From positions 124,001 through 188,000 of the forward strand of contig NZ_MRCE01000012.1 in the NCBI RefSeq assembly GCF_001904725.1: DNA of 64,000 nucleotides, written 5' to 3'. The notes beneath the pieces are model-generated. The model did not search any database. It was not told the DNA's origin and saw only the letters and a program-made list of their open reading frames with translations. The translations under genes and the position numbers were made by a program. The first letter of the stretch is position 1. Each line of letters starts with the position of its first letter. Origin of the DNA: Phormidium ambiguum IAM M-71 (lineage in GTDB: Bacteria > Cyanobacteriota > Cyanobacteriia > Cyanobacteriales > Aerosakkonemataceae). Positions 20,449 to 45,150 of this stretch are shown piece after piece.

Positions 20449-20946
20449 ATGAAACGGAAAAATTTACTAACACTAAGTATTGTGGCTTTGTTAATTGGCT
20501 GCACTACACAGGAAACAACCAAACAGCCTTCAATTACTCCTGTTGCAGAAAACGTCTCTGCTTCTACACAATCACTAGCAAATGTAAAGTCTAATGTTGT
20601 GAAGTCTGGTGCTTTTGTATCTGGAGAACACCCTACTACTGGAACAGCCAGTGTAGTTAACAAAGACGGCAAATCATTTTTAGAGCTAGATCGATCGTTT
20701 AAAACCTCAAATATGGGGCCTGATTTAGTAGTTATATTACATCGTTCTAATAATATACTAGCTTCTACTAAACCCCCTGCTTATCCGCTGAGACAAGGAG
20801 AATATGTGATTCTAGCTCCCTTGAAAAAATTTAGCGGCACTCAAAGCTACGCTATTCCTAATAACATCAATTTAACAGATTACAAATCGGCGGCAATTTG
20901 GTGTCGTAAATTTAATGCAACCTTTGGTGCAGCAACGTTCAAATAA
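20449..20946 (+). CDS. DM13-domain lipoprotein
   Basis: A 165-residue exported protein. The N-terminus is a lipoprotein signal with lipobox LIGC (Cys18), then a Ser/Thr/Gln-rich tether, then a DM13 domain (about 52-165): SGAFVSGEHPTTGTASVV, FLELDRSFKTSNMGPDLVV and the terminal AIWCRKFNATFGAATF with its conserved Cys. DM13 is a small beta-sandwich thought to be redox-active in extracytoplasmic electron transfer. It precedes a small unknown gene in the same direction and sits at the edge of the metal island. A preceding GAGGAA ribosome site supports this start. Confidence 0.85.
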   Translation: MKRKNLLTLSIVALLIGCTTQETTKQPSITPVAENVSASTQSLANVKSNVVKSGAFVSGEHPTTGTASVVNKDGKSFLELDRSFKTSNMGPDLVVILHRSNNILASTKPPAYPLRQGEYVILAPLKKFSGTQSYAIPNNINLTDYKSAAIWCRKFNATFGAATFK

Positions 20947-21004: not shown

Positions 21005-21346
21005 ATGAATAATTCATGGCAAATTATTGGTAATTTTAAACCCCAAGAACTGACAGACAGTAGAATAAAAATCCATTACGCAGTTCAGTTTATTGCTGTT
21101 ACGAGTTCTGCTCTTGTACCAGCCTTGCCAGACTATAGCCACACTAGTTTGGCATGGAATCCAGTCATAAAAATGTTTACAGGTGAATTAATTCAAGTGC
21201 AAACTTCATTTAGAGTTGCACTCGATCCAATTTATCTTAAGCTGAATGATACTAATATCAAAGTAGCTGAGATGCAAAAGCAACAAGTTGAGATTTTTTT
21301 GAATTCGGCTTTTAAATTATCAAAAGCATTATTAACATCTGATTGA
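21005..21346 (+). CDS. Small protein of unknown function
   Basis: A 113-residue protein (MNNSWQIIGNFKP...). No family recognised; it looks like a soluble alpha/beta protein with no signal peptide. The ATG at 21005 is nine bases after GGAGG (20991-20995); a TTG at 20999 is too close to that site. It follows the DM13 gene by 58 bp and its 3' end overlaps the converging phytochelatin synthase gene by 15 bp. Confidence 0.65.
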   Translation: MNNSWQIIGNFKPQELTDSRIKIHYAVQFIAVTSSALVPALPDYSHTSLAWNPVIKMFTGELIQVQTSFRVALDPIYLKLNDTNIKVAEMQKQQVEIFLNSAFKLSKALLTSD

Positions 21347-22516
21347 ATATAAACTATAAAGATGCTGGAGTGCCAACATTTGTTCTCTTAATCTAGATAC
21401 TTCTAAAGCTAAAGGAGATGTAAGTCGATCGAGAGAGCGAACTTCCTCGATCCAAAGTTGTAAATCGGGTTTGAGGGGAGTATACAGAGTTAATGGACAG
21501 GATAGTAAAATTACTGTTATTATCTCTGCGATTAACGGTTGTTGCGATCGCCATTTTTCCACCACAGACATCCCCTCCCAACTAGCATTATCCAAGCATT
21601 TTTGCACAACAGTAAATAATGGATTTAATCGAAGATTCGTGCATAATTTCTCAAAATCATCTGTCATTTGTAGGGAAATATCGAGCATATTTGTAAATTC
21701 AATAGGCCAATAATGCAGGATAATATCGATCGCTGAAACAATTGAGACTGGCTGCTCATTTCTGATAATTTCTGGTAATATTTCTGTAAAGTAAGGAGCA
21801 ATACTACGCCACTGATGTAAATTAAAAGCAACATGAAAAAAGGTTTCTTGTAACCCTTCACTTCTTTGTAATAAAATATAACCTCGACATTGATTAGTGA
21901 CAGAATCTACAGGCTCAAAAGCTTGCCATAATAAAGGTAAAGGAACCCAATGTGGTGGATATTTAAAACGAGCAACATCTAATAAAAGAACTAAATCTCG
22001 TTGGGGATGATAACCACCAATTGGTGAGAAATGACCATCACCAGTTTGTCCTAAAATTTTTCGGTTGTATGACGCAACAAGATGGATATTACTAGGTGCG
22101 GTAGTAACTTGTTCAACTGCTTGGCGAAATTTTTCTAAACTGCTTTGGTGGTAACGATGCGCTGTGACAACAGCACCATTGCAACGTGCAATACAGATAA
22201 ATTCATCGAAAGTAATGCCGTTTTCTTTCACAACAGAAAGAGGTAAACAACAATCTAAAAATTCCTCACCGTACCATCTCCATACCCCTTTCCAAATTCG
22301 ACCAGGATCGATCGACAAAGCATTAAGAACTACCACTAAACTACTCAATCCACAAAAAGCAGGTTCTGCTTGAGTATGAAATTGTTCAGCCAGTGCAAAG
22401 TACCCTTCCATTCCTCCCAAAGCTAATGCTTCTCGAAAAATTTGCCTTCCCTCTATTGAGGAAAAAGCAATAGCAGAATCCGGTAATGAACGACGATAAA
22501 ATCCTTGTTCAGTCAT
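21332..22516 (-). CDS. Full-length phytochelatin synthase (plant-like, with C-terminal domain)
   Basis: Transfers gamma-Glu-Cys between glutathione molecules to make metal-binding phytochelatins (EC 2.3.2.15 for the family). The catalytic triad falls at Cys55 (EPAFCGLSSL), His162 (GDGHFSPIGGYH) and Asp180 (LLLDVARFKYPPHW), almost the same numbering as Arabidopsis PCS1 (Cys56, His162, Asp180). The Cys89-Cys90 pair and WKGVWRWYGEEFLDCC also match plant enzymes. Cyanobacterial PCS-like proteins are usually about 240 residues and lack a C-terminal domain; this one has about 170 extra residues (225-394). ATG at 22516 is preferred to the upstream TTG at 22528. No membrane segment: cytosolic. Confidence 0.92.
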   Translation of the reverse strand: MTEQGFYRRSLPDSAIAFSSIEGRQIFREALALGGMEGYFALAEQFHTQAEPAFCGLSSLVVVLNALSIDPGRIWKGVWRWYGEEFLDCCLPLSVVKENGITFDEFICIARCNGAVVTAHRYHQSSLEKFRQAVEQVTTAPSNIHLVASYNRKILGQTGDGHFSPIGGYHPQRDLVLLLDVARFKYPPHWVPLPLLWQAFEPVDSVTNQCRGYILLQRSEGLQETFFHVAFNLHQWRSIAPYFTEILPEIIRNEQPVSIVSAIDIILHYWPIEFTNMLDISLQMTDDFEKLCTNLRLNPLFTVVQKCLDNASWEGMSVVEKWRSQQPLIAEIITVILLSCPLTLYTPLKPDLQLWIEEVRSLDRLTSPLALEVSRLREQMLALQHLYSLYSIRC

Positions 22517-22542
22517 AACTTTTTTCAATTATTATTACTGTT

Positions 22543-22694: not shown

Positions 22695-22725
22695 ATCCCT
22701 AATCTGTTATTAACAGATTAGGGAT
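22695..22725 (-). terminator. Strong hairpin terminator of the His-rich lipoprotein gene
   Basis: Fifteen-base perfect arms (ATCCCTAATCTGTTA and its complement) around a single central base, followed on the minus strand by ATTTTTTA. It lies 25 bp beyond the stop at 22751. Confidence 0.8.
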
Positions 22726-22750: not shown

Positions 22751-23632
22751 TCAGATAACATTTACCCAGAAATCAGCAGTAATAATCTCACCATTGCGCT
22801 TGAATTGACCCCAAAGTTTATACATCCCCCGTTTAGGAAATCGAGTCAAAAAATGTATTTTACCTGGAGGAGTTCCTTTCAAAGCATGAGCATGAATGTA
22901 ATTAGCTTCAGAGAGAACTGGAGATTGCTGTAAAATTACCAAATGTCCTGCTTCTCCTAAGTAAGGTTGCAAATCCGTCACAGGTTGATTATTAACAGGA
23001 TCTTCGAGGTGAAACATGATAGTTACTTCCTCACCTGCTTTGACTGCGGGAGTAGAAAACAGTAGCTCAACGTTAGTATTCGCAAATGTCCTCATGTGAC
23101 TCAAATTTTTGGCTGAGATTAATGTGTTTTTCCCCGGAACTTGAGTTTTGAGAACAGAAATTTGTTCAGATTTTCCCGCAGGTTTATAATCGCTGAAAAA
23201 GGTGTAATTTCCGGGTTGAGGAAAACGAGCATTGATTTCAAATCGTCCATTTCCTTTGTAAGTCGGGTGAAGATGAGAGAAAAATTGCAGGTCATCACTG
23301 ACGAGAATTAAGTGCATGAATTCTTCTTGGAATCTGTCAAATTTTTCAATAGTTTTACCCGTTGAATCTTGAATGTTAATTGTTACAGGAATATTAGTAT
23401 TGGGAAGAATATTTCCAGGGGTGGTGAGTTTAGCTTTCGCAAACTCACTCTTTGTGGTGTGACTTGAATGATTATGTGAATGTGCATCATGAGTATGATT
23501 TATTTCTTTCATTGAATGTTCCTCTTGGTGGTTATTTGCAACATTTGTTGCTGTCGTTTGATTGCTATTAGTACAACTTTGGGCAAGTAATAAAGTCGCT
23601 ACAATTGCGATCGCAGTGCTAAAACGGTGCAT
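22751..23632 (-). CDS. His-rich extracytoplasmic lipoprotein, probable metal-binding
   Basis: A 293-residue protein beginning MHRFSTAIAIVATLLLAQSC, a lipoprotein signal with Cys20. Residues about 30-65 are rich in His (HTHDAHSHNHSSHTTK), a likely copper or other metal-binding stretch. The rest is a two-part beta-rich module containing FMHLILVSDDLQFFSHLHP and YIHAHALKGTPPGKIHF, with conserved His/Met. I do not know a named family. The ATG at 23632 has AAAGGAG upstream; an ORF extension to 23710 would overlap the promoter and is rejected. It has its own MerR-type promoter. Confidence 0.75.
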   Translation of the reverse strand: MHRFSTAIAIVATLLLAQSCTNSNQTTATNVANNHQEEHSMKEINHTHDAHSHNHSSHTTKSEFAKAKLTTPGNILPNTNIPVTINIQDSTGKTIEKFDRFQEEFMHLILVSDDLQFFSHLHPTYKGNGRFEINARFPQPGNYTFFSDYKPAGKSEQISVLKTQVPGKNTLISAKNLSHMRTFANTNVELLFSTPAVKAGEEVTIMFHLEDPVNNQPVTDLQPYLGEAGHLVILQQSPVLSEANYIHAHALKGTPPGKIHFLTRFPKRGMYKLWGQFKRNGEIITADFWVNVI

Positions 23633-23678: not shown

Positions 23679-23710
23679 ATCTTAAAATCTCCATTTGACT
23701 GGAGAATCAA
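23679..23710 (-). promoter_or_regulatory. MerR-type promoter of the His-rich lipoprotein gene
   Basis: On the minus strand: -35 TTGATT (23710-23705), a 20-bp spacer with dyad CTCCAGTCAAATGGAG, and -10 TAAGAT (23684-23679). The over-long spacer with a dyad inside it is diagnostic of MerR-family activation. The ATG is 46 bp downstream. Confidence 0.8.
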
Positions 23711-23814: not shown

Positions 23815-23919
23815 ATACAAATTCTCTATCAAGATGCGCTTAATTAACCCCACCCCAAACCCCTCCCCGTCTACGGGGAGGGGCTATAATTTAAGCGCAA
23901 TTTTACAGAGAATTGGTAT
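23815..23919. mobile_element. MITE-like element overlapping the end of the RND pump gene
   Basis: Ends ATACAAATTCTCTATC (left) and, on the complement, ATACCAATTCTCTGTAAAA (right). A GC-rich palindrome CCCCTCCCCGT/ACGGGGAGGGG fills the core. The right end supplies the last four codons and the stop codon of the RND gene (TNSL then TAA). It closely resembles the copy at 35825-35928. Confidence 0.75.
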
Positions 23920-26900
23920 GAATTTTTTGGACAGGTTGTGGTAAAGTTTTGGACTCTTTTCGACGCATTAATCGCTGTTGAATTGTGCCAATGACAATAT
24001 ATAAAATCGGGACAACAAACAGACTTAAAAAAGTAGCAACAAATGTTCCGCCAAAGATAGCAGTACCGAGAGATTGACGACTTGCCGCACCTGCTCCTGT
24101 GGGAAATACCATTGGATAAGCGCCCAATAATGCTGAAAATGCTGTCATCAAAATAGGTCGCAAACGGTCTTGGGAAGCTTCTACAATTGCCTTAGTAATT
24201 GACAGACCTTGCTCTCGTAATTGGTTGGCAAATTCCACCATTAAGATCGAGTTTTTGCTGGCTAAACCAATCAACATCACTAATCCGACTTGGCAATAAA
24301 CATCGTTATATAAACCGCGTAAAGATTGAGCGGCTAAGGCTCCCAAAACTGCTAAAGGAACTGACAGCATAATGATTAATGGGTCGAAGAAGTTATTGTA
24401 TTGAGCCGCTAAAACTAGGAAAACAAAGAAAACGCCTAAACCAAAAATGAGTGGTGCTTGTCCTCCAGATTCTAACTCTTCTAAAGAGATTCCTGACCAC
24501 TCAAATCCCATGTTGGGTGGCAATATTTCAGCCGCTAACTTTTCCATTATTTGTATTGCTTGTCCAGAACTAAAACCGGGAGCAGCCGCACCGTTGATTT
24601 CAATGGAACGATACAAGTTGTAATGATTAATTGTTTGGGGGCCTGTTGTTGAGGTAATCTTGACTAAATTACTCAGCGGAATCATTTCTCCTTGGCGAGA
24701 ACGCACATATAATTGACCGATATCTTCTGGGTTCGATCGAAACTTTTGATCCGCTTGCACATAAACTCGATAAGTGCGACCAAAGGCATTAAAATCATTG
24801 ACATAACGCGAACCGATATAAGTTTGCAATGTGCTGAATATTTCATCAGTAGAAACTTGTAATGCTTCGGCTTTTTCTCGATCGATATCGATCAGCAATT
24901 GTGGTGCATTTGCGGTGTAAGTACTGAATACTCCTTGCAATCCAGGTGTTTGATTCGCACGAGTTAGTAATTCAGTTTTTATCCCATCCAAAGTGCTAAT
25001 ATCAGTAGTGCGATCGCCTTTATCTTGTAGTTGAAATACAAAACCACCAGTACTACCAAGACTAGGAATTGTTGGCGGATTTACTGCAATAACTGGGGCT
25101 TGAGGAATTCCCATTAATCCCCCTCGAATTCGATTAAGAATCCCGGAAACTGATTGTTCTGGTTTTTGTCTTTCATCCCACGATTTTAACGGTGCAAACA
25201 TCAATCCTCTGTTTGGTGTATTGCCACTAAAACCTACTCCACCCATCGCAAAAGTGCCTTTAATTTCAGGAACTTTGCTTAATTGTTGTTCTGCTTGCGT
25301 CACAATTTGTCTGGTGTAATTTAAAGAAGTGCCATCGGCTGCTTGAATTAAACTAATAAAATAACCTTGGTCTTCTTCGGGTAAAAAGGCTTTTGGGACG
25401 CGCAAGTAAAGCCAAACAGTTAACACTAACGAGGCAATAAATAAGAGCATCATTATTGGTTTGAATCGAGTTATAAATCTAAGTAATTGATGGTATCCTC
25501 GACGCAACCAATCTAAAAAGCCATTAATGCAATTAGAAGCCCAACCCATTAAGCCACGCGGTTTTGATTGGCGACGTAACAAAAGTGCAGAAAGGGCAGG
25601 TGTTAAAGTTAAAGCATTGAATGTGGAAATAGCGATCGAGAAAGTAATTGTTAAAGCAAATTGTTTATAAAGTTGTCCTGTCGTTCCGGGAAAAAAACCA
25701 ACTGGAATAAATACTGCCATCAAAACTAAGGCGGTGGCAATTACCGAACCGAACAATTCGCGCATTGCTTCCGAAGTAGCCCGAATTGGACTTAGCCCTT
25801 TTTCTTGAATTAAACGGGTGACATCTTCCGCAACTACGATCGCATCATCTACTACCATTCCCGTTGCTAAAGTCAAACCAAATAAGGTGAGACTGTTTAA
25901 TGAAAAATTAAAAATTTTCACAAATGCAAAGGTGCCAATTAATGATACGGGAATTGCGATCGCAGGAACGATCGTTGCCCGCCAGTCTTGTAAAAAGATG
26001 AAGATTACTAATACAACCAGCCCTACTGATTGAAATAAAGTAATCACAACTTCTCTAAATGATGCTTCTACAAATAAAGAGGAATCGTAGGGAATATCAT
26101 AAGTTAATCCTGGGGGAAATTTCTGAGCTAATTTTTTCATTTCAGCCTTGACTGCTTTGGCAATATTCAAAGCATTACTACCCGGAATTTGGAGAATTTG
26201 ATAACCTACAGCAACGTGACCTTTATAACTGGCAAAAGAGCTATAACTTTCTGCCCCTAATTCAGCTTTTCCTACATCTTTTAATTTGACAATTGTGCCA
26301 TCAGTATTAGCTTTGAGAATTAGATTTTCAAATTCTTTGGCTTCTTTAAGTCTGCCTTTAGTTTGTAAGTCGATTTGATACAATTGTCCATCGGGTGCAG
26401 GGGGTTGTCCAATACTACCAATACCTACTTGTAAGTTTTGTTTGTTGAGTGCATTAATTACATCTTGAGCGGTGAGATTGCGACTTGCTAAACGTTGAGG
26501 ATCTAACCAAATTCGCATTGCATAACGGCGATCGCCAAATGCGAGAATATTTCCTATACCTTTAATGCGTCGAAGTGGATCTAATACATACAGATCTGCA
26601 TAGTTACTAATAAATGTATCATCGTAGCGATCGTCTTCGCTATAAAGTGCCATTGCTAATACAATTGCATTCGATTGTTTAGAAACAGTAACTCCTGTTT
26701 GTCGGACAACATCTGGAAGTTTTGGTTCTGCTTGTAACACTCGATTTTGGATATCTGATGCAGCAACATCCAAATCATAACCTTGTTCAAAGGTAATAAT
26801 AATTGTGCTAGTACCGTCATTACTGCTAGTTGAATTCATGTATCTCATGCCTTCAACGCCATTAATTTGTCTTTCTAATACGGTGGTTACTGTCTCTTCT

Positions 26901-27073
26901 ACAACTTGAGCACTGGCACCAACATAATTTGCATTGACGGCAATTTGTGGCGGACTAATATCTGGATATTGCTCTACAGGTAGGGCAGGAATGCTGATAA
27001 ATCCAGTGACTAATATAACTAGGGCGCACACGATCGCAAATACAGGTCTTTTGATGAAAAAATCGGCTAACAT
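23903..27073 (-). CDS. RND multidrug/metal efflux pump permease, HAE1 (AcrB) type
   Basis: A 1056-residue inner-membrane proton antiporter with the usual twelve-helix, two-loop plan (MLADFFIKRPVFAIV at the N-terminus). Proton relay residues are Asp409-Asp410 in GMVVDDAIVVAEDV and the Lys in GLASKNSILMVEF, as in AcrB; CusA-type heavy-metal signatures are not seen, so by sequence it is HAE1 rather than HME. The ATG at 27073 gives the standard N-terminus; the longer start at 27124 adds unrelated residues. The last codons come from a MITE. Its adaptor lies immediately upstream in the same operon; an outer-membrane TolC partner is not in the window. Confidence 0.92.
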   Translation of the reverse strand: MLADFFIKRPVFAIVCALVILVTGFISIPALPVEQYPDISPPQIAVNANYVGASAQVVEETVTTVLERQINGVEGMRYMNSTSSNDGTSTIIITFEQGYDLDVAASDIQNRVLQAEPKLPDVVRQTGVTVSKQSNAIVLAMALYSEDDRYDDTFISNYADLYVLDPLRRIKGIGNILAFGDRRYAMRIWLDPQRLASRNLTAQDVINALNKQNLQVGIGSIGQPPAPDGQLYQIDLQTKGRLKEAKEFENLILKANTDGTIVKLKDVGKAELGAESYSSFASYKGHVAVGYQILQIPGSNALNIAKAVKAEMKKLAQKFPPGLTYDIPYDSSLFVEASFREVVITLFQSVGLVVLVIFIFLQDWRATIVPAIAIPVSLIGTFAFVKIFNFSLNSLTLFGLTLATGMVVDDAIVVAEDVTRLIQEKGLSPIRATSEAMRELFGSVIATALVLMAVFIPVGFFPGTTGQLYKQFALTITFSIAISTFNALTLTPALSALLLRRQSKPRGLMGWASNCINGFLDWLRRGYHQLLRFITRFKPIMMLLFIASLVLTVWLYLRVPKAFLPEEDQGYFISLIQAADGTSLNYTRQIVTQAEQQLSKVPEIKGTFAMGGVGFSGNTPNRGLMFAPLKSWDERQKPEQSVSGILNRIRGGLMGIPQAPVIAVNPPTIPSLGSTGGFVFQLQDKGDRTTDISTLDGIKTELLTRANQTPGLQGVFSTYTANAPQLLIDIDREKAEALQVSTDEIFSTLQTYIGSRYVNDFNAFGRTYRVYVQADQKFRSNPEDIGQLYVRSRQGEMIPLSNLVKITSTTGPQTINHYNLYRSIEINGAAAPGFSSGQAIQIMEKLAAEILPPNMGFEWSGISLEELESGGQAPLIFGLGVFFVFLVLAAQYNNFFDPLIIMLSVPLAVLGALAAQSLRGLYNDVYCQVGLVMLIGLASKNSILMVEFANQLREQGLSITKAIVEASQDRLRPILMTAFSALLGAYPMVFPTGAGAASRQSLGTAIFGGTFVATFLSLFVVPILYIVIGTIQQRLMRRKESKTLPQPVQKIHTNSL

Positions 27074-27158
27074 AGGTATACTCTGGATGTATTGGATTTT
27101 GAACCACGAAGACACGAAGGACACGAAGAAAGAAGAGAGAAGAGAGAAGAAGAAATTT

Positions 27159-28547
27159 TCACAATTGATTTAGACTGGCTATAGATGCGCCATCTCTGAG
27201 AGCTAATAACCCGGAAAGTACAACTTTTTCTCCTGGTTTTAATCCTGAAATAACTTGATAATTATTGCCTTCAATGCTGTCTACTTTGATGAGGCGTTGT
27301 CGAGCTACTATTCCTGATTTAGAAGATTCTGCTACAAAGACAAATGTTTCTCCACCAAAGCGCATAATTGCAGTTGTTGGTACTAACACGCCTAGTTGTT
27401 GTTTCCAAATTACCTTGGCTCGAACAAATTGCTCAACTTTTAACTGTCCTTTAGAATTGTCAAACAGCGATTTTATTAGCACAGATTGCGTATCATTTGT
27501 AGCTTTTGGTGAAATGAAAAATATGCGACTTGTGCCTAGTGTTTTACCTTGACCATCGGTTAATTCAACGGACATTCCTGAACGTAATTTGAGGGCTTGT
27601 TCATTAGGAACTGAAAAGGTAACTTCTAATGAACGATTATCTGTAATTGTGGTTAATTGGCTGGAATTATCAACAAAATCTCCGACTTTTACGGGAATAT
27701 CTCCTACTGTACCAGCAAAGGGAGCCGTAATTAAATAAAACTGAAGTTGGGCAGCTTGTTCTTTGACATTTGCCTGAGCTTGTTTGACCAATCTTTGATT
27801 TTTAATAATGGTTGCTTCGGCTTTAGTTATTGCTGCTTTGGCTTTAATAATCGCTGCTTCTTGGGCAGCAATATCCGCATCTGTTTGAGCAATTTTAGCT
27901 TTAGCAACTTCTAGAGCATTGCGCCGTTGATCTAGCATTTGCAAACTAACAGCGCCTTGACGATAAAGATAGTTAAATCGTTCATAGTCTCGCTCATTAA
28001 GTGTTAAATTAGATTGTTCCGAAACTTGACGAGCTTGTAATGCTTTGAGTGTTGCTTTAGCATTGTTAACATCAGCTTTGGCGCTGGCTAATTCGGCTTT
28101 GGCAGTTTCTAAATCAGCTTGGGAAGATTCAACAGCTGCGATACGACTTTCAACTGATGCTTGTTGCGGTTTCGCATCTACTTTTAAAATCGGAGTACCT
28201 GTTTTTACTTGTTCTCCACTTTGAACTAAAATTTGGGAAATTTGACCCTGAATTCTGGGGCGTAATGTAATAGAACGACGAGATTGTAAGGTAGCAACAA
28301 ATTCTGAACTTTCTTCAATAGAACTGGTTTTTAGTAACAATGTTTTTACAGGCATTGGTGGTTGTTGAGCGACTGCTGGGGGTGATTTCTGAGTCGGAGT
28401 CATAGTCTGCCACAGTCCTATTCCTCCACCGCCTACAAGAAGCAGGAATATGATAATTAATCGAAAGTGCGATCGCTTTTTACCAGTTAGCTCTGAAATA
28501 TCTTGAATATCAGGGTTTGCAGTCGATTCTAACTCAGATACTTCCAT
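27159..28547 (-). CDS. RND efflux periplasmic adaptor (HlyD/AcrA family)
   Basis: A 462-residue membrane fusion protein. An N-terminal cytoplasmic stretch and one signal-anchor helix (about 27-45) are followed by a lipoyl half (TLQSRRSITLRPRIQGQIS), a long coiled-coil hairpin rich in Ala/Lys/Glu (about 130-265), the second lipoyl half (ITAPFAGTVGDIPVKVGDFV) and beta-barrel and membrane-proximal domains. It links the RND pump to an outer-membrane channel. The RND gene begins 85 bp downstream; that gap holds a purine-rich cyanobacterial spacer repeat (GAAGACACGAAGGACACGAA). Confidence 0.92.
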   Translation of the reverse strand: MEVSELESTANPDIQDISELTGKKRSHFRLIIIFLLLVGGGGIGLWQTMTPTQKSPPAVAQQPPMPVKTLLLKTSSIEESSEFVATLQSRRSITLRPRIQGQISQILVQSGEQVKTGTPILKVDAKPQQASVESRIAAVESSQADLETAKAELASAKADVNNAKATLKALQARQVSEQSNLTLNERDYERFNYLYRQGAVSLQMLDQRRNALEVAKAKIAQTDADIAAQEAAIIKAKAAITKAEATIIKNQRLVKQAQANVKEQAAQLQFYLITAPFAGTVGDIPVKVGDFVDNSSQLTTITDNRSLEVTFSVPNEQALKLRSGMSVELTDGQGKTLGTSRIFFISPKATNDTQSVLIKSLFDNSKGQLKVEQFVRAKVIWKQQLGVLVPTTAIMRFGGETFVFVAESSKSGIVARQRLIKVDSIEGNNYQVISGLKPGEKVVLSGLLALRDGASIASLNQL

Positions 28548-28664: not shown

Positions 28665-29018
28665 CTAACGAATATTAAGCCTCTGCAATTGAGCTTCTAC
28701 CGCACTCAAATATCCTTTGTCACTGGCAATTTGGGGTGATAATTTGTTAGCTCTAATTGCCGCTGCAACTAATTGTTCTGCACTTAGTCTTCCCATCTGA
28801 TGAGCCGAGACAAGTTGTAAATAACCAGGTATACCTTGCTCTTGAAAATAGCCTTGGTTAGCCATTGAAACAAGCTCAAAAGGTGTGATTTGATAAACAG
28901 AACTTCCGGTGGTTCTATAAGTTTCTGAATTGATTGCTTGAGTTTGAGCTTGAGCTACTGGCACAGATAAAGAAGATAAGAATACTAAAGACAAACTGCC
29001 GATGATTAAGCGTTTCAT
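28665..29018 (-). CDS. Small secreted protein of unknown function, metal-regulon member
   Basis: A 117-residue protein with a clear Sec signal (MKRLIIGSLSLVFLSSLSV, cleavage near AQAQ). The mature part is helical (PFELVSMANQGYFQEQGI...GRLSAEQLVAAAIRANKL), with no Cys or obvious metal ligands. The ATG at 29018 follows GGAGG; the TTG at 29030 is inside that ribosome site. It is transcribed from a MerR-type promoter and lies 117 bp before the adaptor gene, so it probably leads the efflux operon. Confidence 0.75.
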   Translation of the reverse strand: MKRLIIGSLSLVFLSSLSVPVAQAQTQAINSETYRTTGSSVYQITPFELVSMANQGYFQEQGIPGYLQLVSAHQMGRLSAEQLVAAAIRANKLSPQIASDKGYLSAVEAQLQRLNIR

Positions 29019-29090: not shown

Positions 29091-29122
29091 ATCTTAAATT
29101 CTCCAGTTGTCTGGAGAGTCAA
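29091..29122 (-). promoter_or_regulatory. MerR-type promoter of the small secreted protein and RND operon
   Basis: Minus strand: -35 TTGACT (29122-29117), 20-bp spacer containing the perfect dyad CTCCAG-ACAA-CTGGAG, -10 TAAGAT (29096-29091). This is the best dyad of the four related sites. Confidence 0.85.
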
Positions 29123-29247: not shown

Positions 29248-29661
29248 TTAATTTTGTTCAATCAGAGGACAAATGACTGAATCAACCTTTTCTAATAATG
29301 TTGATGAACCGGAAAGTAATCCTTCTAATTCTGATTTGAGAATAAGTAGTTGCTGAATTTGTTGTTCAATATCATTTACCTTATCTTGCAACTTAGTTTT
29401 AACCTGTTCGCAAGGCAAATCACCTTGGTCGTGAACTCTCAAGAATTCCCGAATTTCTAATAAAGTTAATCCCAAACTTTGGGCGCGTTTGATAAAGCTG
29501 AGGCGAGCCAAAACATCAGGAGTAAACAATCTAAATTTTCCCTCAGTTCTGCCTGATGCTTTGAGTAAACCGAGTTCTTCATAGTAGCGAATAGTTTTAA
29601 TCGATACGCCGCTTTCTTTGGCAACTGAACCGATGAGTTTTTGCGCTTCTTGGACTAACAT
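29248..29661 (-). CDS. MerR-family metal-responsive activator
   Basis: A 137-residue regulator: winged helix-turn-helix (about 8-75; IGSVAKESGVSIKTIRYYEE), a dimerisation helix, and a C-terminal metal loop. Only two likely ligands are seen: Cys84 (position of ZntR Cys79 and CueR Ser77) and Cys131 in VICPLIEQN (position of CueR Cys120). The Cys corresponding to CueR Cys112 is missing. This hybrid set makes the metal hard to call; context says copper, the Cys84 position suggests a divalent-type sensor. The ATG at 29661 has AGGAGAGG upstream and follows its own MerR-type promoter. It probably controls all four dyad promoters in the window. Confidence 0.88.
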   Translation of the reverse strand: MLVQEAQKLIGSVAKESGVSIKTIRYYEELGLLKASGRTEGKFRLFTPDVLARLSFIKRAQSLGLTLLEIREFLRVHDQGDLPCEQVKTKLQDKVNDIEQQIQQLLILKSELEGLLSGSSTLLEKVDSVICPLIEQN

Positions 29662-29695: not shown

Positions 29696-29727
29696 AGGAT
29701 AAACTCTCCGGTTAAGAGGAGAGTCAA
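29696..29727 (-). promoter_or_regulatory. MerR-type promoter of merR itself
   Basis: Minus strand: -35 TTGACT (29727-29722), 20-bp spacer with CTCC...GGAG dyad, -10 TATCCT (29701-29696), 35 bp before the merR ATG. It suggests autoregulation. Confidence 0.8.
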
Positions 29728-29874: not shown

Positions 29875-30807
29875 TCAATTATTGAAAGCTTGAGCAGCTT
29901 TTTCGTGGAACTCAGAGGTGTTGGCAGCTTGCACTTTTATAATGCCGCGAACCATATTCATGCCGCAGCTAAAAGCGTGTTCTCCCTCTTGTTTGGGAGT
30001 AAATTCGATCGTTTTTAGTTGATGCAAAGGTAAATCGGTTGCAATATCAAAATCAGGAATCAGAATTTTCTCTAAACAACTACTAGGATTTTCCCTTAAA
30101 AAGCTGAGTTGAACGGGTTTTCCTGCTTTAACTACCAGATGATTTGGTTGGTAGCCTTTGTCAACAATCACAGTTAGTTTTTGTATTTCCTGGTTAACAT
30201 TTGGATTAACTTGCATAGTTGTAGTTTCCTTGACTGTTTCATGCTGATTTGGGGAAATCAATGGTGTAGTTGATTCACTTTGTTGATCTTCGGCAATGAT
30301 TTCGCCACGAAACATATTCATGCCACAGGTAAAGACATAATTTCCCGCTTTTTTTGGTGTAAATTCTACAGAAGTAACAACATTAATTGGCAAATCTGCG
30401 GCAATATGAAAATCTGGAATTAATACTTGTTCCAAACAACTACTAGGATCTAAGCGATGAAAATTAAGACGCACAGGTTGACCTGATTGGACAACAATCC
30501 GACTGGGTTCGTAACCGCCATCAACGGTGATAGTTACTTCTTGAATTCCTCCAGTTGCAGTTGCTTTTTTCGACTGGGGTTTACTGAGGAGAAACCACCA
30601 AAGTTCTAAACCAATTAATCCGAGTCCAGCCAGAGTCACTAAAACTTTGTTACTTAAGGGTTGTTCAATGGGACGAAATTGATTTGTTTGCTCTGTTTTA
30701 GTTGGGTGTGTTTCATGGGTATTTTGTGCGATCGCTTCTCCAGTTCCCATTCCTAACACAATCCCTAAACTAGCAATTCCACCGATGATTTTGGTTCTGT
30801 TCAACAT
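29875..30807 (-). CDS. Membrane-anchored protein with two cupredoxin-like domains
   Basis: A 310-residue protein. A signal peptide (MLNRTKIIGGIASLGIVLGM) and a second hydrophobic helix (LVTLAGLGLIGLELWWFLL, about 55-73) precede two tandem cupredoxin-like domains (about 88-172 and 210-295). Each domain has the same set of candidate copper ligands: a Cys in DPSSCLE / NPSSCLE, and Cys plus Met in CGMNM. They are of the EfeO/CopA-associated cupredoxin type rather than plastocyanin. Last gene of the likely copZ-copA-microprotein-cupredoxin unit. Role: probably extracytoplasmic copper binding or delivery. Confidence 0.85.
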   Translation of the reverse strand: MLNRTKIIGGIASLGIVLGMGTGEAIAQNTHETHPTKTEQTNQFRPIEQPLSNKVLVTLAGLGLIGLELWWFLLSKPQSKKATATGGIQEVTITVDGGYEPSRIVVQSGQPVRLNFHRLDPSSCLEQVLIPDFHIAADLPINVVTSVEFTPKKAGNYVFTCGMNMFRGEIIAEDQQSESTTPLISPNQHETVKETTTMQVNPNVNQEIQKLTVIVDKGYQPNHLVVKAGKPVQLSFLRENPSSCLEKILIPDFDIATDLPLHQLKTIEFTPKQEGEHAFSCGMNMVRGIIKVQAANTSEFHEKAAQAFNN

Positions 30808-31035: not shown

Positions 31036-33297
31036 TTAAGCTAATAATTTGGGTCGGAAATTACGCAGACGCAACGCATTTGTTACTACAGAAACTGAAC
31101 TAAATGCCATTGCTGCTCCGGCAATAATCGGACTGAGAAGCCATCCGAAAAAGGGGAAGAGTATACCTGCTGCGATCGGAATTCCTGCTACGTTGTAAAT
31201 AAAGGCGAAAAACAAATTTTGTTTGATGTTTTGCATTGTGGAACGAGATAATTGAATCGCAGTAACAATGCCGTGTAAATCACCAGAAATTAGCGTAATG
31301 TCACTAGCAGCGATCGCAACATCTGTCCCAGTACCAATTGCCATTCCTACATCTGCTTGAGCTAATGCAGGCGCATCATTAATACCATCTCCCACCATTG
31401 CCACAATTTTTCCTTCTTCTTGAAGATTGGCAACTTGCGCGGCTTTTTGTTCGGGACGAACTTCTGCAATTACTCTTTTGATTCCAACTTCTCTCGCTAT
31501 TACTTCAGCCGTGCGACGGTTATCACCTGTTAACATTACCACTTCTAATCCCATCTTTTGTAAGATGCGAATTGCGTTGGCAGAAGAAGGTTTTACGGCA
31601 TCTGCGATCGCCATCATACCTTCCACTTTCCCATCAACTGCTAACCAAACAACCGTTTTACCAAGGTATTCCAATCGCTCCCAATCTTGTTCTAATTTAT
31701 GGGTATCAATTCCCAATTCTTTCATCCAGCGATGCGTACCAATTTGTACCCATTTATCGGAAACATAGCCTTGTACACCGCTACCTGCGATCGCTTCAAA
31801 TTGTTGAGTATCTGTTAATTCTACACCTTGCGATTGAGCATATTGGACAACTGCTTCGGCTAAAGGATGCTCAGAATTACGTTCCACAGATGCAGCTAAC
31901 TGTAATAGTTTGAATTCGTTTTGATTAGCTGTGCCGTCAACAGTTAAAAAATGAGTGACTGTGGGTTTTCCTTGGGTAATTGTGCCTGTTTTATCGAGAA
32001 CGATCGCTTGGATTTTATGAGCCAATTCCAAGCTTTCTGCACCTTTAATTAAAATGCCGTTTTCTGCGCCTTTTCCAGTTCCCACCATGATCGAAGTTGG
32101 TGTTGCTAAACCTAAAGCACAAGGACAAGCGATAATCAAAACACCTACGGTAGTAATTAATGCCATCGTCACATTTCCCATGAGGTTATACCAGATGATG
32201 AAAGTAGCGATCGCAATTGCAATTACCGCCGGAACAAACCATCCAGTTACTTGGTCAGCTAATCTTTGAATCGGTGCTTTAGAACCTTGTGCTTGCTGAA
32301 CTAATTGCACAATTTGAGCCAAGAAAGTATCTTTGCCAACTCGCGTAGCGCGGAATTTAAAGCTACCTGTTTTGTTAATTGTCGCTCCAATTACTTCATC
32401 GCCTGATTTCTTTTTTACAGGTAAACTTTCCCCTGTCACCATTGCTTCATCTATGGTTGAAGAACCATCAACAATCTCACCATCTACGGGAATTTTTTCC
32501 CCTGGACGCACGAGAATTATATCGCCCAAAATTACTTCCGCAATCGGAACATCTACCTCTTTTCCATTACGAATTACTCTTGCGGTTTTCGCTTGCAATC
32601 CCATCAGTTTGCGAATTGCTTCTGAGGTTTGTCCTTTGGCGCGATTCTCCAACAATTTCCCCAACAGAATTAAGGTAATAATTACAGCAGCCGCTTCATA
32701 ATACACATCTGCTGTTAATCCTTGATTGGTAAAAAAGCTGGGGAATAGAGTAGCAAAAATGGAATAGAAAAAAGCCGCACCTGTGCCAACTGCAACTAAA
32801 GTATCCATTGTCGCTGCATGGCGCTTTAAGGCTTTCCAAGCATTAATATAAAAGCTACGACCGCACCAAAATTGTACGGGTGTAGTTAATATTAATTGCA
32901 GCCAAGGATTGTGTAACCACATTGGGATGAAAGGAATAGATAATCCTGTCATCATTGGCAGAGAACCAATTACTAAAATGGCGCTGACTAAGCCACCAAA
33001 TATAACTTTGTTGCGTAATTGTCGAGTTTCTGCCTGTCTTTCTTGTTGTTCGACATCATCATTTCTATTCAACAAATCATCGGATTTTATGGGTTGAGCA
33101 ACATATCCAGCCGCATCAACTGCTTCTTGAATTGCGTCTAAATTGGTTTGTTGCGGGTTATATTTAACTGTTGCTTGTTCTGCACCAAAGTTGACGTTAC
33201 AAGCTTCTACACCAGGGACAGAAAGAATCGCATTTTCGATCGCATTTGCACAAGAAGCACAACTCATCCCTCGCAGTTTCAAATTTGCGTTTTCCAT
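31036..33297 (-). CDS. copA: Cu(I)-exporting P1B-1-type ATPase
   Basis: A 753-residue ATPase. One N-terminal heavy-metal domain (GMSCASC, Cys13/Cys16) is followed by eight membrane helices. The transmembrane metal site is Cys391-Pro-Cys393; the phosphorylated residue is Asp435 in DKTGT; the SEHPL and GDGINDAP motifs are present. YN in helix 7 and MxxSS-type AMAFSSVSV in helix 8 are specific for Cu(I) (P1B-1). It drives Cu(I) out of the cytosol or into an internal compartment. GGAGG lies just before the ATG, 31 bp after the chaperone gene, and the promoter upstream of that gene likely serves both. Confidence 0.95.
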
Positions 33298-33565: not shown

Positions 33566-33597
33566 ATCTTGAACTGTCCAGTCAACTAGAGAGTCAA
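33566..33597 (-). promoter_or_regulatory. MerR-type promoter of copZ-copA
   Basis: Minus strand: -35 TTGACT (33597-33592), 20-bp spacer with an imperfect CTCTAG...CTGGAC dyad, -10 CAAGAT (33571-33566), 36 bp before the chaperone ATG. Confidence 0.78.
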
Positions 33598-33772: not shown

Positions 33773-34102
33773 TTAAGCTACACCTGCAACACTAACAATC
33801 TTGCGGTATTCTTCAGCGGCTACCCGACAAGCCTGAGCGCATTTCTGGCAATGTTCGGATTCGTGCTTTTCACATTCTTTGGCGCAGGCTTCGCAGATTT
33901 CTATACAGGATTTAACAATTTGGGGGATGAAGCGCGAACCACGACTCATGTAAGCAGCAGAATTCCAGCAAATTTGCGCGCAATCTATGCAGAGACGGGC
34001 GCATTCAGGCATACTACCCAAACAAGAATCGGCACAGTGTTCGCATTCGTATGCACAGCGAACCGCAATATCTATACTGGATTGAGAAATTTTGTGAGCC
34101 AT
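33773..34102 (-). CDS. Cys-rich four-helix-bundle copper-storage protein (Csp3/DUF326-like)
   Basis: A 109-residue protein with 15 Cys spaced along helices (for example CAYECEHCADSC and CIEICEACAKEC). This is the Csp/DUF326 pattern, in which Cys line the core of a four-helix bundle and hold many Cu(I) ions. No signal peptide, so cytosolic Csp3 type. The ATG at 34102 follows AAAGGAG; a longer start at 34138 is not supported. No MerR-type dyad was seen upstream. Confidence 0.88.
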   Translation of the reverse strand: MAHKISQSSIDIAVRCAYECEHCADSCLGSMPECARLCIDCAQICWNSAAYMSRGSRFIPQIVKSCIEICEACAKECEKHESEHCQKCAQACRVAAEEYRKIVSVAGVA

Positions 34103-43446: not shown

Positions 43447-45150
43447 TTAACGGACTGCTACATCGTAAACTTCGGTTTCGAGGTCTACGTTCACGATGTA
43501 AGGATCGACGGGTCGTTTAAATAACTCCATCTCTCCAGCTTCGTTTTTCTTCAAGTTGACGTGGCAGAACCACTCTTCGTTGTTTTTCTCTGGATAATCT
43601 AGACGATAGTGATAGAGACCCCAACGGCTTTCCTTGCGGAACAGCGATGCTCGTGCCGCCATTTCCGCACAGTCGCGGATAAAATGAACTTCCATACAGC
43701 GCATCAGTTCATGGGGATCGTTGGCTCCCATCAGGTTTAGCGTGGCATGATAATCTGCGAATTTTTCTAAACCAATTTCCATCTTGTAAGGAGACTTGGG
43801 AGGTTGTAGATAATCATTAACAAGTCGTCGCAATTTATACTCAACTTGAGTATGGGGAATTCCACTTGGATGCTGTAAGGGTCGGTAAATCCGCTCTTGC
43901 TCGGCAGCGAGAAATTCTGGATCGGGTTCGATGTGTTCCAATTCACGCAGGTATTCGATCGCATTTTCCCCTGCAATCCGTCCGTAAACAAATGCGCCAA
44001 TCATATAGTTGTGCGGCACACCCGCCATATCTCCAGCGGCGTAAAGACCAGGCACCGTTGTTTCAGCTTTCTCGTTGACCCAAACGCCAGAGGCACTATG
44101 ACCGCTGCACAACCCAATTTCCGAGATATTCATTTCTACGCCGTGTGTGCGGTAGTTTTCTCCCCGTCCTTCATGGAAACGTCCTCGGCTGGGCCGCTCG
44201 TTGTCCCACAGAATCCGCTCGATTTCGGAAATGGTGTCGTTGTCGAGGTGGTACATTTTCAGGTGAACAGGGCCTTTGCCGGAGTTTAGCTCCTTCCAGA
44301 TTTCCAGCATCATCTGACCGCTCCAGTAATCGCAGTTAATGAAGCGATGCCCTTCTGCATTGGCAGTGTAAGCTCCAAAGGGGCTGGCGACATAGGCACA
44401 GGCTGGCCCATTGTAGTCTTTGATGAGCGGGTTGATTTGGAAACACTCGATGTTGGTGAGTTCAGCGCCCGCGTGATATGCCATTGAGTACCCGTCCCCG
44501 GCATTGGTGGGGTTTTCGTAAGTGCCGTAGAGATAGCCTGATGCAGGCAAGCCGAGTCGTCCACAGGCTCCCGTGCAAAGCACGACGGCTTTCGCTTGAA
44601 TCACCACAAAGTCGCCATTGCGGACATCAAACCCGACGGCTCCGGTTACTCGTCCATGTTGTACCATCACACGAGTCGCCATGACGCGGTTAGTTACCCG
44701 AACGCCTTGCCGCTTTACCTGACGCGCCAGAATCTTTTTTAAATCTTTTCCTTCTGGCATGGGTAGGACATATTTTCCTACTCGGTGAACTTGCTTGAGG
44801 TCGTAATTGCCTTCGTGATCTTTCTGGAATTTAACGCCCCAGCTTTCTAATTCTTGAATTACAGAAAAGCCTAAGCGACCTGTTTCGTAAACTGATTTTT
44901 GGTTCACAATGCCGTCATTGGCGATCGTAATTTCCCGAACGTATTGTTCTGGCGTGGAATTCCCAGGAATGACCGCAGTATTAACTCCATCCATGCCCAT
45001 TGCGATCGCTCCACTGCGACGGATATTCGCTTTCTCTAAAATTAAAACGTCTGCGTCTGGGTTTGCTTGCTTTGCCTTAATGCCTGCCATTGTTCCGGCA
45101 GTTCCACCACCCACAACCAAAAAATCTGTCTGCAAGTACTGAGTATTCAC
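43447..45150 (-). CDS. AprA-like FAD oxidoreductase (fumarate reductase/adenylylsulfate reductase superfamily)
   Basis: A 567-residue flavoprotein. The FAD Rossmann motif VVGGGTAGTMAG lies at 12-23, with the substrate-domain signature GLCSGHSASGVWVNEKAE and the second FAD motif GLYAAGDMAGVPHNYMIG. The family includes SdhA, FrdA, AspB and AprA. The HxH-less GHSASGVWV segment and the adjoining AprB-like ferredoxin make it most like AprA, which interconverts adenylylsulfate and sulfite plus AMP; the true substrate is unproven. The start is GTG at 45150 after GGGAG. It is the first gene of a run with ferredoxin, HEAT and Mrp genes, divergent from a LysR-type regulator. Confidence 0.82.
   Translation of the reverse strand: MNTQYLQTDFLVVGGGTAGTMAGIKAKQANPDADVLILEKANIRRSGAIAMGMDGVNTAVIPGNSTPEQYVREITIANDGIVNQKSVYETGRLGFSVIQELESWGVKFQKDHEGNYDLKQVHRVGKYVLPMPEGKDLKKILARQVKRQGVRVTNRVMATRVMVQHGRVTGAVGFDVRNGDFVVIQAKAVVLCTGACGRLGLPASGYLYGTYENPTNAGDGYSMAYHAGAELTNIECFQINPLIKDYNGPACAYVASPFGAYTANAEGHRFINCDYWSGQMMLEIWKELNSGKGPVHLKMYHLDNDTISEIERILWDNERPSRGRFHEGRGENYRTHGVEMNISEIGLCSGHSASGVWVNEKAETTVPGLYAAGDMAGVPHNYMIGAFVYGRIAGENAIEYLRELEHIEPDPEFLAAEQERIYRPLQHPSGIPHTQVEYKLRRLVNDYLQPPKSPYKMEIGLEKFADYHATLNLMGANDPHELMRCMEVHFIRDCAEMAARASLFRKESRWGLYHYRLDYPEKNNEEWFCHVNLKKNEAGEMELFKRPVDPYIVNVDLETEVYDVAVR

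Follow-up and report, generated by a model that had tools for sequence, protein, structure and literature searches.

Results

The window analyzed here, a stretch of 64,000 nucleotides from Phormidium ambiguum IAM M-71 (contig NZ_MRCE01000012.1, positions 124,001 to 188,000), carries a gene for a phytochelatin synthase (PCS) of 394 amino acids, which we assign to the E-type (group 2) class from its PF05023 match, its position in a tree, and the homology of its C-terminal part to that of AtPCS1. Read from ATG, the gene occupies 21332..22516 on the minus strand, stop codon included, and a TTG start would extend it to 21332-22528 on the same strand. All the features that follow it in the upstream direction also lie on the minus strand. 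A hairpin resembling an intrinsic terminator (22695..22725; 14 pairs, 5 of them G-C, followed by a T run; a consensus match only) stands between PCS and the gene for a YtkA-like lipoprotein (22751..23632; a weak PF13115 match below the cut-off), which is itself preceded by a candidate MerR-type operator/promoter, TTGATTCTCCAGTCAAATGGAGATTTTAAGAT, with 2 mismatches (23679..23710), 1194 bp upstream of the PCS ATG. Farther upstream are genes for an RND efflux permease (23903..27124; above the cut-off with the HAE1-type model TIGR00915 and below it with the CusA/CzcA model TIGR00914), an HlyD/RND periplasmic adaptor identified by family match (27159..28547), and a small, secreted-looking protein of 117 amino acids that matched 0 families (28665..29018). 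These are followed by a pattern match to the MerR-type operator with 1 mismatch (29091..29122), a MerR-family metal regulator (29248..29661), a weaker operator-like site before the MerR gene (29706..29727; 3 mismatches, outside the 11 whole-genome matches described below), and a protein with a double cupredoxin domain (29875..30807; PF13473 in two stretches). The set is completed by a CopA-type copper P-type ATPase of 753 amino acids (31036..33297; TIGR01511 at 675 bits against a cut-off of 397), a putative MerR-type operator with 2 mismatches before the CopA gene (33566..33597), and a four-helix, Cys-rich copper storage protein of the Csp3/DUF326 family (33773..34102; PF03860; solved CSP3 at E 1e-12). 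The first-pass annotation, made from the sequence alone, had noted a copper/metal island beside PCS, and genes for CopA, Csp, a cupredoxin, MerR, and HlyD-RND do adjoin it.

CopA, Csp, and the cupredoxin point to copper as the metal of the island, whereas a divalent metal appears as likely to be the signal of its MerR regulator. The regulator matched no specific MerR type above the cut-off in NCBIfam, and it carries a Cys that aligns with a Cys of CadR and of the solved regulator 4ua1, a Bacillus MerR. Copper-sensing CueR has Ser at this position, so that copper may not be what the window regulator senses. Just beyond PCS, on the opposite strand, lies a gene for a lipoprotein with a DM13 electron-transfer domain (20449-20946), and outside the island, the window also encodes an FAD-binding protein of 567 amino acids with a fumarate-reductase-type C-terminus (43447-45150).

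The catalytic domain of the window PCS spans residues ~6-213, and the C-terminal domain spans ~214-394. PF05023 matched residues 6-213 over its full profile (1-210 of 210) with an E value of 6e-88 and 294 bits (cut-off 24.9). The catalytic triad named in the first-pass annotation proved exact at C55, H162, and D180, with a spacing of 106 residues from Cys to His and 17 from His to Asp. The triad and four extra cysteines, arranged as CC (C89/C90) and CxxxC (C108/C112), were identical in 16/16 aligned long bacterial PCS, an alignment in which T48 was likewise invariant and E51 nearly so. The residue four positions before the catalytic Cys is thus Glu rather than Asn, followed by Pro (P52), with Thr seven positions before the Cys, as in group 2 or E-type enzymes; the Alr0975 type, in contrast, is short, lacks a C-terminal domain, and has Asn before the catalytic Cys, where the window protein has Glu51 and a C-terminal part of 181 residues. 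Five solved structures matched the window PCS by sequence, all of them Alr0975 and all aligned throughout the catalytic domain, and the catalytic part of the predicted model superposed on nine chains of solved Alr0975 with TM-scores to the target of 0.82-0.87. Because the full-length model (mean pLDDT 77.6) has low confidence in stretches of the catalytic domain, we base our statement on its fold solely on the Alr0975 match. No signal peptide was seen at the N-terminus of the window PCS; judged by eye, many short cyanobacterial PCS have signal-peptide-like N-termini and the long forms do not. Viral contigs searched with the window PCS yielded 6 stretches that matched a pattern and 0 relatives.

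An extension of about 170 residues beyond the catalytic domain had also been noted; it is present and, at 181 residues with 4 Cys, slightly longer. The corresponding part of AtPCS1 has 272 residues and 10 Cys, and 18 cyanobacterial C-termini ranged from 171 to 194 residues with 1-5 Cys each. A profile of these 18 aligned with the AtPCS1 C-terminus in hhalign with a probability of 96.5 and an E value of 8.5e-10, colinear from end to end (1-171 vs 1-256), and shuffled controls (n=5) gave probabilities of 0.1 to 9.9. The plant Cys-rich middle segment found no aligned counterpart in the profile of 18 cyanobacterial C-termini. On this profile evidence, the C-terminal domain of the window PCS is homologous to the plant domain, without its Cys-rich insert, and the short forms have no such domain. 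PF09328 scored the window PCS at 19.2 bits, under the cut-off of 25, and placed L005 and L038 above it; at E <= 0.01, 14/16 long proteins were matched. Structure prediction, which had been suggested as a check, gave a confident and mostly helical model for the C-terminal domain on its own (mean pLDDT 88.1) and no counterpart for it, as Foldseek against PDB returned 0 matches at E <= 0.001. VIA-align produced one row at Z 2.1 among 678 aligned chains. The structure searches with this predicted model are therefore uninformative and establish the fold neither as new nor as known.

The long and short proteins were clearly separated in our phylogeny. Its input comprised 22 long proteins, among them the truncated L057, together with 26 short proteins (L006-L031) drawn from ~33 near-full-length short-type matches, and AtPCS1; the AtPCS1 sequence used for the tree and the alignments alike scored 303 bits with PF05023 and 302 bits end to end with PF09328. 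The Microcoleus near-copies L042 and L043, the duplicates L001, L003-L005, L032, L035, L049, and L061-L080, and the fragments L002, L033, L037, L060, L082, L086, and L087 were omitted. Clustering of the window PCS with short bacterial proteins, which the first-pass annotation had regarded as evidence against a plant-like enzyme, did not occur: a 100/100 branch split 26/26 short cyanobacterial PCS from a group made up of the window PCS, the 21 remaining long bacterial proteins, and AtPCS1. Inside the long set, the window PCS was placed with Microcoleus, and the position of AtPCS1 was without resolution, with a long-branch warning for AtPCS1 and the short set.

The enzyme belongs to a class that has already been described. 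Ferrari et al. (2024) define E-type or group 2 PCS of cyanobacteria by a Glu preceding the catalytic Cys, four additional Cys, and a C-terminal extension (PMC11314372). Their Table 1 lists P. ambiguum WP_073594115.1 with 394 aa, 45.12 kDa, the motif QAEPAFC, spacings of 106 and 17, 10 Cys, a pI of 5.59, 10.65% negative and 8.12% positive residues, an instability index of 54.85, and an aliphatic index of 103.43 (PMC11314372). Our computed values for the window PCS were 394 aa, 45.12 kDa, QAEPAFC, 106/17, 10 Cys, pI 5.59, 10.66% negative, 8.12% positive, 54.85, and 103.43. The window PCS is apparently the same protein as the tabulated one, and since its computed properties reproduce that row, the enzyme is a known member of a published class and the finding as first worded, a full-length, plant-like PCS in a cyanobacterium, is correct but not new. 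The words "operon" and "plasmid" occur 0 times in the main text of that paper, in which we found nothing on gene neighborhood (PMC11314372).

Across the phylum, PF05023 matched 43/386 genomes at E <= 0.001, 42 of them above the cut-off. The long type was represented by the four genes that scored highest (open frames of 398-459 codons), in G000 (the window genome), G024, G027, and G099; judged by top score and length, and with a frame of 484 codons and 212 bits in G314 left out, full-length PCS thus occurs in 4/386 genomes and is uncommon, as the first-pass annotation had supposed. The G027 protein has 401 aa and is 53% identical to the window PCS. In named genomes, 21 loci were detected, of which 19 are cyanobacterial and 2 carry the label Deltaproteobacteria (Myxococcota according to the tree tool); the 21 include one N-terminal fragment and one copy ending after ~residue 263. 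The two loci labeled Deltaproteobacteria, L058 and L059, come from metagenome genomes and have a long-type PCS with a shorter C-terminal domain, without a copper island. Plasmid records provided 13 matches, of which 2 covered 80% or more of the protein; both of these plasmids, from Scytonema NIES-4073 and Aulosira laxa NIES-50, were typed as conjugative.

Island genes recurred beside long-type PCS in other genomes. Relatives of at least two of the island genes lie within ~10 kb of PCS at L035/L051, L038/L049, L039, L048, L050, L052-L055, L057, and L060, and likewise in a second island of the window genome (L037). YtkA-like homologues adjoin PCS at L045 and L048 and are found in L037 as well; the Planktothrix locus L045 has this gene and an operator only. 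L047 was not counted as an island, since it has weaker relatives only: an RND relative at 25%, part of a YtkA-like gene, and an HlyD-type gene upstream, along with a single downstream site with 3 mismatches. Island genes and operator were absent beside PCS in Microcoleus (L036, L040, L041, L044), G027 (L034), and the Myxococcota loci L058 and L059, and the shorter contigs L042, L043, L046, and L056 yielded none. As a control, 20 of the ~33 near-full-length short-type matches were searched for RND, HlyD, MerR, cupredoxin, and YtkA genes, with none at E <= 1e-8 in these 20 loci; distant ATPase matches (33-34% identity) appeared in 2/20. At the genome level, the comparison of PCS with the cupredoxin gave matches in 39/386 genomes at E <= 1e-40, those over both domains being confined to G000, G024, and G074, and we did not use this co-occurrence as evidence because it is too sparse and is biased by starting from the window genome. 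The association of PCS with mobile MerR-type copper islands is a correlation at the sequence level, seen in four or five independent arrangements, and we found no description of it among the open-access papers listed in our searches. In the plasmid island at L038, a DUF305 protein and a YHS-domain copper-type ATPase are encoded downstream of PCS (L038:14995-18120).

The recurring promoter consists of TTGACT, a 20-bp spacer holding the dyad CTCCAGT-NN-ACTGGAG, and TAAGAT. Its pattern was built from sites first noticed in the second island, on contig C17, and the operators of that island are therefore partly circular evidence. With up to 3 mismatches, the pattern matched 11 sites in the 7.4-Mb genome, all of them in the two islands (3 in that of the window, 8 in that of C17), and the reversed control pattern matched 0. 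The 28 long-type loci, which include the 64-kb window and the duplicates L035/L051 and L038/L049, held 71 sites in 580 kb after matches within 40 bases were merged, against 0 sites in 399 kb of the 20 short-type loci and 1 site in 1.28 Mb of Markov sequence. For operator placement, L035 and L049 were dropped and the broken copies L037, L057, and L060 were kept, with less than 1.5 kb of upstream sequence available at L043 and L046; on this basis, 14/26 long-type loci have an operator within 1.5 kb upstream of PCS and 12/26 have none. It is directed towards PCS in 10/26, a count that excludes L057 and L060; at these two loci, the match on the PCS strand mirrors a site on the other strand.

In 8/9 Nostocales loci, the site is followed by two genes of the YdcZ exporter family and then by PCS, with the family named for L038 and assigned to the others by relationship; the second YdcZ gene is interrupted at L053, and the ninth locus, L060, has been reduced to the last part of the second YdcZ gene and the first part of PCS. 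These eight loci are near-copies and therefore count as about one lineage. At L038, gaps of 24 and 65 bp separate the genes of the ydcZ-ydcZ-PCS series, and a search for terminator-like sites between the ydcZ pair and PCS found none at this locus, the one Nostocales locus checked. L048 has the order operator, YtkA-like gene, 36 bp, PCS, and no terminator-like site was found on the PCS strand. In the plasmid-type islands, PCS closes a putative operon led by a MerR-type promoter. MerR control of PCS is plausible for these operons and for L048, judging from gene order and spacing; for the window PCS it is putative and unproven, the case being weaker because the 14-pair terminator-like hairpin separates the gene from the operator-led YtkA-like gene.

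Several island copies of PCS are broken. The C17 island contains relatives of MerR, HlyD, a partial RND permease, YtkA-like, cupredoxin, CopA, and Csp genes, and its PCS (L037:9970-13615) is split, with residues ~1-57 and ~351-394 left. In place of the middle there are now an RND tail, a gene for a MerR-precorrin-mutase protein, and a P-type ATPase of the cadmium family, of which the last two resemble the cobalt system CoaR-CoaT (PMC4284471). The N-terminal remnant runs in frame with the RND tail as a chimera of 124 codons. The C17 tail of PCS shares 80% identity with Planktothrix and 50% with the copy in the window, and the two islands of this genome are therefore probably separate arrivals. 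Truncated copies also occur in copper islands of Nostoc sp. ATCC 43529 (L060:10001-10207) and Argonema antarcticum (L057:7287-8087); the latter, of 266 aa, has kept its catalytic domain and lost its C-terminal domain. Damage to three island copies (C17, L060, L057) indicates that PCS is dispensable in those islands. The C17 and L060 copies share a breakpoint near PCS residue 56, where C17 lost the middle of PCS to the RND tail and the CoaR-CoaT-like cassette and L060 also lost most of its YdcZ pair; programmed rearrangement at this point was considered and dropped as unsupported.

Discussion

We are fairly confident, with regard to both enzyme identity and chemistry, that the window gene encodes a true phytochelatin synthase of the plant-like group 2 ("E-type"). 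It has in common with AtPCS1 the triad, the Thr/Glu context, the CC and CxxxC cysteines, and a homologous C-terminal domain, the difference being the Cys-rich middle of the plant C-terminal part. Alr0975/NsPCS of Nostoc PCC 7120 and the other short cyanobacterial PCS share the papain-like catalytic domain but lack the C-terminal domain, form a separate branch, and in many cases have a signal-peptide-like N-terminus. The PCS of Geitlerinema PCC 7407, a full-size cyanobacterial enzyme encoded in its genome, is similar in length to the window PCS at 401 aa, and Bellini et al. (2020) describe this organism as making Cd-activated PC2-PC4 (PMC7411734). A compact PCS without the plant Cys-rich part could serve as a tool for asking what the C-terminal domain does without that part.

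As no signal peptide was seen, unlike in many short forms, the window PCS would be cytosolic. There, a thiophilic metal (Cu or Cd) may load glutathione as a bis-thiolate, and a gamma-Glu-Cys acyl-enzyme formed at Cys55 would hand its dipeptide on to another glutathione molecule, yielding PC2 and longer, metal-chelating peptides, while the C-terminal domain would stabilize or tune the enzyme. Judging from its position, PCS may serve as one arm, chelation, of a copper/heavy-metal island that moves horizontally, in which CopA and HlyD-RND would provide export, Csp storage, and the periplasmic copper proteins a further arm, with MerR-type regulators in control. Mobile metal islands of the MerR type (mer, cue, cad, pbr) combine a MerR regulator, a palindromic operator in a promoter with a 20-bp spacer, a P-type ATPase, RND efflux, and carriage on plasmids. 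The PCS islands have these features in common with them and differ in having phytochelatin synthase as an island gene.

We tentatively propose, giving it somewhat less than an even chance, that plant-type PCS is a working part of mobile, MerR-regulated copper/heavy-metal islands, carried on conjugative plasmids in some Nostocales and co-transcribed there with a YdcZ pair that possibly moves the peptide or its complex with the metal; it would thus be inducible and plasmid-spread and no housekeeping relic. The location of the gene in a copper-resistance island of a mobile kind suggests that bacteria carry PCS as a metal-defense gene. This setting makes it possible to ask whether PCS determines metal resistance in bacteria as a mobile gene with a regulator of its own, and which metal it serves.

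PCS may instead be a passenger of often-recombining islands, expressed constitutively and outside the MerR response. The terminator-like hairpin before the window gene and the damaged copies in C17, L060, and L057 are consistent with such a passenger, as are the Microcoleus and G027 genes that have no island beside them and the description of the Geitlerinema PCS as constitutively expressed (PMC7411734). The association nevertheless recurs across rearranged islands of differing make-up (the window, L048, L057, C17, and the Nostocales) and is missing from 20/20 short-type loci, and operators are directed towards PCS in 10/26 loci, which makes mere carriage rather unlikely, if still a serious competitor to the proposal of a working island part.

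We regard as improbable the explanation that the protein is mainly a hydrolase of glutathione or its conjugates, engaged in GSH turnover like Alr0975 and placed in a metal island incidentally. Its catalytic domain does align throughout with Alr0975 and matches its fold, and the Nostoc enzyme is described as acting chiefly on GSH with little or no phytochelatin formed (PMC7411734, PMC11314372). However, the window PCS falls on the plant-like branch and shows three features missing from the short forms, namely the E-P context, the CC/CxxxC cysteines, and a C-terminal domain; moreover, PC2-PC4 are formed with Cd in an organism whose PCS has 401 aa (PMC7411734). Recent transfer of the gene from a plant or alga, which the plant-like residues and C-terminal domain might suggest, is very improbable given long PCS in several cyanobacterial groups and Myxococcota and 18 cyanobacterial C-termini without a counterpart of the plant Cys-rich insert, though the tree tests it weakly, with one plant sequence and no resolved place for it among the long forms.

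Besides the short and long types, a further PCS-like family with weak matches was observed in G340, G352, G376, G251, G024, G068, and G030 (E ~1e-10 to 1e-12); its open frames span 196-228 codons and align to PF05023 from ~48-85 to 209 only.
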